This document shows, one piece after another, positions 28,257 through 29,248 of a DNA stretch of 36,042 bases. Position numbers and translations under genes: made by a program. The notes beneath the pieces were generated by a model that worked only from the letters and a program-made list of their open reading frames with translations, was not told where the DNA came from and searched no databases. How positions within the stretch are numbered: the first letter of the stretch is position 1; every line of letters starts with the position of its first letter. Origin of the DNA: Candidatus Nitrosopumilus sp. (GTDB lineage Archaea; Thermoproteota; Nitrososphaeria; Nitrososphaerales; Nitrosopumilaceae); contig JAPFBP010000010.1 of NCBI GenBank assembly GCA_029250275.1, positions 1 through 36,042 on the forward strand, written 5' to 3'.

Positions 28257-28745
28257 GTATTGTGATTTACAATTACCATTAAAAAATTATAGTGTTAATT
28301 GGTATCAGCAATCCATTTTGAATGTCAAACCGCTTTAATCATTCAAAATTAGATCGAATGGTATTCAGTATATTTCCAATCTAACCAATTAACATTATTT
28401 CATGAATTTTCTTAAAAATATATTTTTGTACGTCTAGATGACTTAACAAATTATTAACTGCGTTAGAATAGATGTACGTTGAATTTTCTTTCTGCATTGT
28501 TTTAGATTGATACTGTCAATCTTCTTATCTAGTCATCTTGAATCATTATTGTTACTGTCTTGACACGGTGCATAATCCCCACCCATCATATACGCAGTTA
28601 TTTTTTTACTAAGTTTGTTTTCTAATTAAAATTATATGTAATTTATAATATTTTACTACTTTTCTTGAAATTAATCATATAAAATCTTAAATAGTTATTT
28701 GTCTTATACAATATTATGTCGTTAGTTATAAAATCTGGCGATTAG
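28257..28745. other. long intergenic region upstream of a structured RNA
   Basis: No convincing coding frame on either strand. AGATTGA-TACTG-TCAATCT (28504-28522) is a perfect 7-bp hairpin. A TATA-like TTATAAAA at 28726-28733 lies about 20-25 nt before the 5' edge of the RNA candidate that follows. TTAACATTATTTC near 28394 is only a half match to the palindrome found at 15-20 kb. Confidence 0.4.
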
Positions 28746-28848
28746 ATTGCGCTACCCCGCAGAACAAAAAAGGCAATCAAACGTTTAGACGTTTGACCAC
28801 GAGAGGAAATCTCTCCGAGTTCTGCAGTTAGGGGTTTGCGCCTTTTAT
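28746..28848 (+). ncRNA. structured non-coding RNA candidate, about 95-100 nt
   Basis: The ends pair over a long interrupted stem: GCGC (28749-28752) with GCGC (28838-28841), CCCC (28755-28758) with GGGG (28831-28834) and GCAGAAC (28759-28765) with GTTCTGC (28819-28825). Inside are two hairpins: TCAAACG (28777-28783) with CGTTTGA (28790-28796), and GAGAG (28801-28805) with CTCTC (28811-28815) around a GAAAT loop. The result is a three-way junction. It is far more GC-rich than its surroundings, has a TATA-like box upstream and T tracts right after (CCTTTTATTTTCTTT). I do not recognise the class: no tRNA, SRP, RNase P, 5S or hammerhead core is present. Confidence 0.7.
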
Positions 28849-28894
28849 TTTCTTTAGATAATGTCATGTGATTTTAGAAAAATAAAAAAAAAAA

Positions 28895-29248
28895 TTATGG
28901 TGAGAACCCTTTGCCGTTGACACTACTGTCCCATGCATCTACCATTGGGTTTTGTCTTCTTTCAAGTTCTTCCAAGTATCCGTTTGCTTCTCCTGCAGGA
29001 ATGTAAAATGTTGCAGAAACAATATCTCCAACACTTGCATCACAGTTTGAAACAACAACTGATCTTCCAAGACTTGACTCACCTACACAACCATAATCCG
29101 TTACAGCGATAACTGATACATCTTCAGTAACTAAAGTTGGAAGTACATTCCAGGGAGCTACTGTGAAAACTAGTATCACTGAAGCTGCGACAGATACAAT
29201 TGCTAGAAATTTCAGTTGTGGTGTTTTCTTGTATTTTGTTTGTTGCAT
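28895..29248 (-). CDS. exported membrane-anchored protein, 117 aa
   Basis: A basic N-terminus and one membrane helix (about 14-33, FLAIVSVAASVILVFTVAPW) are followed by a small external domain with two Cys (YGCVGESSLG, VSNCDASVG) that could form a disulfide, and a polar end. GAGGAG before the ATG may be a ribosome binding site. On the minus strand its promoter has two CTAG-containing elements and TATA-like TTTATATC. The same element occurs at the photoprotection-type cluster to the right. Confidence 0.6.
   Translation of the reverse strand: MQQTKYKKTPQLKFLAIVSVAASVILVFTVAPWNVLPTLVTEDVSVIAVTDYGCVGESSLGRSVVVSNCDASVGDIVSATFYIPAGEANGYLEELERRQNPMVDAWDSSVNGKGFSP

Follow-up and report, generated by a model that had tools for sequence, protein, structure and literature searches.

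A structured small RNA of Nitrosopumilaceae with a conserved, probably leaderless nine-codon micro-ORF: a candidate translation-gated RNA

Bacterial dual-function small RNAs, of which SgrS/SgrT is an example, join a small RNA with a short open reading frame (ORF). Among archaea, some small RNAs of Haloferax volcanii show ribosome occupancy without a detectable product (PMC12482152). In transfer-messenger RNA (tmRNA), a folded RNA contains a short reading frame whose stop is conserved, and in leader-peptide attenuators a short ORF is directly followed by a structured domain and a U-rich tract. Orphan structured RNAs, which have been discovered by comparison of sequence and structure, are restricted to particular lineages and have no assigned function (PMC2864571; PMC5069720); one of them, Tan1, is a 229 nt RNA of marine group II Euryarchaeota (PMC5069720). 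Nitrosopumilaceae are among the most abundant marine ammonia oxidisers, and we found no function described in the literature for their small RNAs beyond the housekeeping ones.

Here, we analyse an RNA encoded in a window of 36,042 nucleotides (positions 1-36,042 of contig JAPFBP010000010.1, assembly GCA_029250275.1) from Candidatus Nitrosopumilus sp. The RNA is predicted to extend over 28716-28848 plus a U-rich tail on the forward strand, approximately 133-135 nt in all. Its nearest known kinds are the dual-function small RNAs and the ribosome-associated archaeal small RNAs (PMC12482152), which it resembles as a small RNA with a short ORF or ribosome binding. Unlike in these, its ORF is predicted to be leaderless, is fixed at nine codons, encodes an unconstrained peptide and stops 3-5 nt from the basal helix P1 of a covarying three-way junction that is conserved across an archaeal family. 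As expected of a dual-function small RNA, it has a short ORF whose start and stop are conserved, whereas purifying selection on the peptide is absent; because the peptide is not conserved, membership in the classical kind fails. With tmRNA and attenuators the RNA has only isolated traits in common. It differs from tmRNA in lacking a tRNA-like domain (ARAGORN, Rfam), in having its own 5' AUG and in showing neither a resume codon nor tag conservation, and from attenuators in that its loci mostly have no downstream gene and its codons form no regulatory runs. The orphan structured RNAs are alike in their mode of discovery, restriction to a lineage and lack of an assigned function, and we found no comparable micro-ORF described for those compared (PMC2864571; PMC5069720).

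Extent and distribution of the RNA

A sequence-only reading of the window had proposed that 28746-28848 holds an unclassified RNA with a three-way junction and with a promoter and terminator of its own. The element is real, but its 5' boundary was misplaced: in a strand-corrected alignment of homologs, conservation reaches approximately 30 nt further 5', to an ATG at 28716, where the RNA presumably starts. The T tracts noted downstream are indeed present, the DNA being T-rich from 28843 on, and the tract 3' of P1 (28843-28855, forward strand) is, from its sequence, the putative terminator and 3' end.

The unclassified status was upheld, since no Rfam 15 family matches. At the gathering threshold the window is without a match; a permissive search of 28600-28950 returned chance-like matches alone, none of which spans the whole RNA, and ten divergent homolog loci gave one unrelated tRNA and nothing else. 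ARAGORN detected no tRNA or tmRNA in the window. SRP RNA, RNase P RNA and 5S rRNA, which the earlier reading had also set aside, were rejected as the identity of the element because the genome's own copies are single and sit elsewhere (G000, C66:4972-5283, C79:472-750 and C48:26574-26693). In the open literature, a scope that leaves out most subscription papers, no earlier description of the RNA was found. The RNA and its nine-codon ORF are currently invisible to Rfam and to genome annotation, and their inclusion is warranted.

The distribution of the RNA was followed by BLASTN and by two covariance models. Most of 250 genomes of the family match by BLASTN, typically at two or three places each, and a second copy was found in this way on contig C66 of the window's own genome. 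The first model, built from 29 sequences of the window's genus, gave full-length matches in 175 of 400 genomes of the order, all of them in one GTDB family (f1) and spread over 17 genera; with laxer filters, it matched 34 of 39 selected genomes. The second model, built from 44 diverse sequences and applied to a class-wide sample, matched 202 of 221 f1 genomes, and only four genomes that are at least 90% complete were without a match. By its named matches, f1 is Nitrosopumilaceae: the named records that carry the RNA belong to Nitrosopumilus, Nitrosarchaeum, Nitrosomaritimum and other Nitrosopumilaceae. No convincing match was obtained outside f1 in the class-wide sample, which covered approximately 15 other families of the order. 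Two marginal matches outside f1 (L118 and L119; E 0.03-0.05) were attributed to chance, as both lack a promoter box and an ORF and the model fits them poorly. A copy scoring 121.7 bits lies on a contig labelled as a Hyphomicrobiales metagenome-assembled genome (L266, JABSRY010000148.1), probably a misbinned archaeal contig.

Fold and covariation

Both the originally proposed element and the extended RNA are predicted to fold stably. The minimum free energy is -40.3 kcal/mol for 28740-28860 (z = -4.1; none of 200 shuffles as good) and -47.8 kcal/mol for 28716-28850 (z = -5.1). The stems named in the sequence-only reading all exist, and its three-way junction was borne out by their covariation. 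P1, the basal helix of the junction, pairs GCGC at 28749-28752 with GCGC at 28838-28841; 98% of cells are paired and CG to UA compensatory changes occur. P2 (CCCC 28755-28758/GGGG 28831-28834) is paired in 94% of cells, with four of four pairs changed on both sides, and P3 (GCAGAAC 28759-28765/GTTCTGC 28819-28825), which closes the three-way junction, in 96%, with seven of seven pairs changed on both sides. The two inner hairpins are P4 (28772-28773/28797-28798 and 28777-28784/28789-28796) and P5 (28801-28815; GAGAG GAAAT CTCTC). In P4, the two basal GG/CC pairs are paired in 75% of cells; the remainder of the hairpin covaries strongly, being paired in 90-95% of cells with double changes in all pairs. 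P5 is paired in 97% of cells, has a pentaloop of consensus G-N-R-W-U and retains the core AGG-N-R-W-UCU in 90 of 101 aligned sequences. Upstream of the junction, between the start and stop codons, a 5' hairpin (28719-28741; 28719-28725/28735-28741) lies inside the ORF; it covaries and has a mean z of -2.7 over 85 distinct ORF sequences. All of these helices are on the forward strand.

When 99 distinct sequences were compared, compensatory changes on both sides were seen in 33 of the 37 base pairs, and 89.9% of cells were paired compared with 36-48% in slid controls; no shuffle attained the observed values. The fit of alignments A2 and A3 to the covariance model biases them toward its pairs, and only 73% of cells in helix 1 are paired; the unfitted MAFFT alignment A1 has double changes in 8 of the 37 pairs, a result that none of 500 shuffles equalled. 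Unpaired nucleotides are variable except for the start codon, the stop codon and one loop, and the suggestion that the element might be ribozyme-like accordingly found no supporting evidence.

Some further features were seen by eye or tried as leads. In the window's genus, the junction segment AAAAAGGC (28766-28774) and the 3' end GCCTTTT (28841-28847) are mutually complementary, a possible pseudoknot or alternative pairing. P4 was also considered as a kink-turn or box C/D element, an idea dropped on inspection because tandem G.A pairs are missing. A Shine-Dalgarno reading of the P5 loop, in which AGG-N-R-W-UCU was compared with the 16S 3' end GGATCACCTCC, is a weak lead, as a perfect AGGUGAUC is found in just one of 101 sequences.

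The putative promoter box and the micro-ORF

Upstream of the RNA lies a TATA-type box, TAAATA (as TTAAATA), at 28688-28693 on the forward strand, whose promoter function is suggested by its position and conservation. The box recurs in nearly all of the 126 distinct homologs, its start 27-31 nt and nearly always 28 nt ahead of the start codon, as in the window copy, and it is centred near -26 counting from the A of the ATG. The RNA therefore presumably begins at, or within approximately 2 nt of, this A, and would be leaderless; that it is transcribed at all, and its exact start, are predictions. The element thus does appear to have a promoter of its own, as the earlier reading held, although not the one it named: that TATAAAA (approximately 28728-28733) is not conserved and falls within the transcript, where it occupies the loop of the 5' hairpin.

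The first 30 nt of the RNA (28716-28745, forward strand) form an ORF of nine codons and a stop, ATG TCG TTA GTT ATA AAA TCT GGC GAT TAG, encoding MSLVIKSGD, which argues against the purely non-coding nature implied at the outset. Across the 126 distinct homologs, the start codon is ATG in 121 and GTG in three; the ORF has nine codons in 117, eight in five, ten in three and 12 in one, all in frame, and ends with TAA in 72, TAG in 41 and TGA in 13. The ATG has been lost in the remaining two copies (L165 and L174), which retain a TTG at codon 2 and are possibly decaying paralogs. One genome carries tandem copies of the RNA at 1192-1314 and 1501-1622, approximately 300 nt apart (L075, G246:C184), one with an eight-codon and the other with a nine-codon ORF.

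Substitutions in the ORF were counted on a tree built from the remainder of the RNA. For the stop codon, 22 changes were inferred, each to another stop and none to sense, and for the start codon three, always A to G to give GTG. T2, G3 and T28 did not change at all, and the nucleotides just 3' of the stop changed 25-43 times each. In codons 2-9, the first, second and third positions changed 124, 150 and 105 times, respectively; almost all codon changes replace the encoded residue, and no single amino acid is enriched. The lack of a third-position excess indicates that the peptide is not conserved, and across the family the peptides have no common residue after the methionine. Stops in the +1 and +2 frames are scattered. 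A search for the box followed by ATG, nine codons, a stop and GCG matched exactly three places in the window's own genome, which are its three paralogs, and the reversed-pattern control gave none. A looser promoter-ORF-GCG pattern matched a viral contig (L277) that has no covariance-model match and is not a homolog of the RNA.

Most members have the 5' hairpin, but class C, a divergent third class of paralogs, lacks it, and in some copies of genus g15 it has moved. Since the nine-codon ORF persists in both cases, it is not a by-product of the hairpin. Class C was observed in the window's genus (L127 at G000:C69:18481-18604, L126 and L128); the promoter spacing, the nine-codon ORF (MQYHVNYKE and similar) and P1 are unchanged in it, and the inner hairpins differ. 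Taken as a whole, the comparison of homologs establishes a new RNA family, its fold, its promoter-to-ATG spacing, selection on the start, stop and length of the ORF, and a peptide that is free to vary. Translation of the frame is on these grounds very probable.

Proposed translation gating and competing explanations

In 95 of 99 sequences, P1 begins 3-5 nt 3' of the stop codon. The leading edge of a ribosome usually lies approximately 15 nt past the first P-site nucleotide. With this footprint, an initiating ribosome would reach approximately nucleotide 16 and leave P1 untouched, and a terminating ribosome would reach approximately nucleotide 40 and have to open P1 (nucleotides 34-37). We therefore propose that the TATA-type promoter sets the transcript start at or next to the ATG, that a ribosome loads straight onto the 5' AUG and melts the ORF hairpin, and that it decodes exactly nine codons whose sequence is unconstrained and terminates at the stop before P1. 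The terminating ribosome would open P1, so that termination and the closed three-way junction would be mutually exclusive, and the folded domain would act in trans via a partner. The RNA would accordingly be a translation-gated, that is ribosome-sensing or ribosome-binding, small RNA in which initiation and termination are selected and the peptide is not, a reading to which we assign a probability of about 0.5. For the gating step itself, we regard the odds as roughly even. Translation, the opening of P1 and the role in trans are what we infer from the sequences and their geometry. Against this reading, the 5' hairpin would hinder leaderless initiation and the ATG is lost in two of the 126 copies.

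The RNA occurs in nearly every member of Nitrosopumilaceae and bears an unusually clear mark of selection on translation and not on its product. Ribosome-coupled RNA regulation and leaderless initiation in archaea could be tested directly on it. More tentatively, and with the odds somewhat against it, it might represent a new class of cellular RNA: abundant, family-wide and recruiting ribosomes to a leaderless micro-ORF of fixed length and irrelevant peptide, so that the basal helix of its three-way-junction effector domain would be switched with every cycle of initiation and termination. If so, ammonia-oxidising archaea would have in it an RNA that gauges or regulates the availability of ribosomes.

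An unread ORF is the premise of one alternative, a purely non-coding structured RNA in which AUG and URR are conserved unpaired motifs, such as an initiator sequence and a protein-binding site, flanking the 5' hairpin. The hairpin, conserved in most members, would then fix the distance from ATG to stop, and the free peptide would be expected; however, motifs of this kind do not account for three stop codons that interchange 22 times and never become sense, for GTG in place of ATG, for ORFs of eight, ten and 12 codons that stay in frame or for ORFs kept where the hairpin is absent or moved, and we consider this alternative unlikely. Conserved start, stop and length would equally suit a functional nonapeptide (a signal, modulator or toxin) whose message is stabilised by a structured 3' UTR, and within clades the peptides do resemble one another (MPKDIIPID, MRKD.NPID, MQKD.KSTA). 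This too is improbable, given codon changes that lack third-position bias and nearly all alter the residue, the absence of any family-wide residue after the methionine and a 3' domain that makes up approximately three quarters of the RNA and is more conserved than the ORF.

The genomic neighbourhood bears on two other explanations. A short ORF followed by P1 and a U-rich tract has the anatomy of a cis-acting leader or attenuator, in which translation of the micro-ORF would control a terminator formed by P1 and the U tract and hence a downstream gene, and a co-directional gene does lie 70-134 nt downstream at eight of 68 loci. At 59 of the 68, however, the downstream neighbour is convergent, which mostly leaves no gene for regulation in cis; this holds at the window locus, where the convergent gene occupies 28895-29248 on the minus strand and no co-directional gene follows closely. 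Neighbours also differ among copies and no amino acid is enriched in the codons, so that a general attenuator is quite unlikely; the eight co-directional loci mean that a cis role could apply in some lineages. Judged from these surroundings, the element is a stand-alone small RNA gene that forms its own transcription unit at most loci, as the translation-gated reading supposes. The dispersed copies in each genome, with one tandem pair, might instead be those of a small mobile or repeat element spreading without a cellular function. We hold this to be very improbable: copy number is low and stable (1-3 per genome in most, rarely up to six), covariation among the copies preserves the fold, the match on a viral contig is not a homolog and, in much of the family, copy B keeps a syntenic position flanked by the same genes. 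The neighbours of copy B, named by eye, are a short-chain dehydrogenase, a CysQ-like phosphatase and an adenylylsulfate kinase-like protein.
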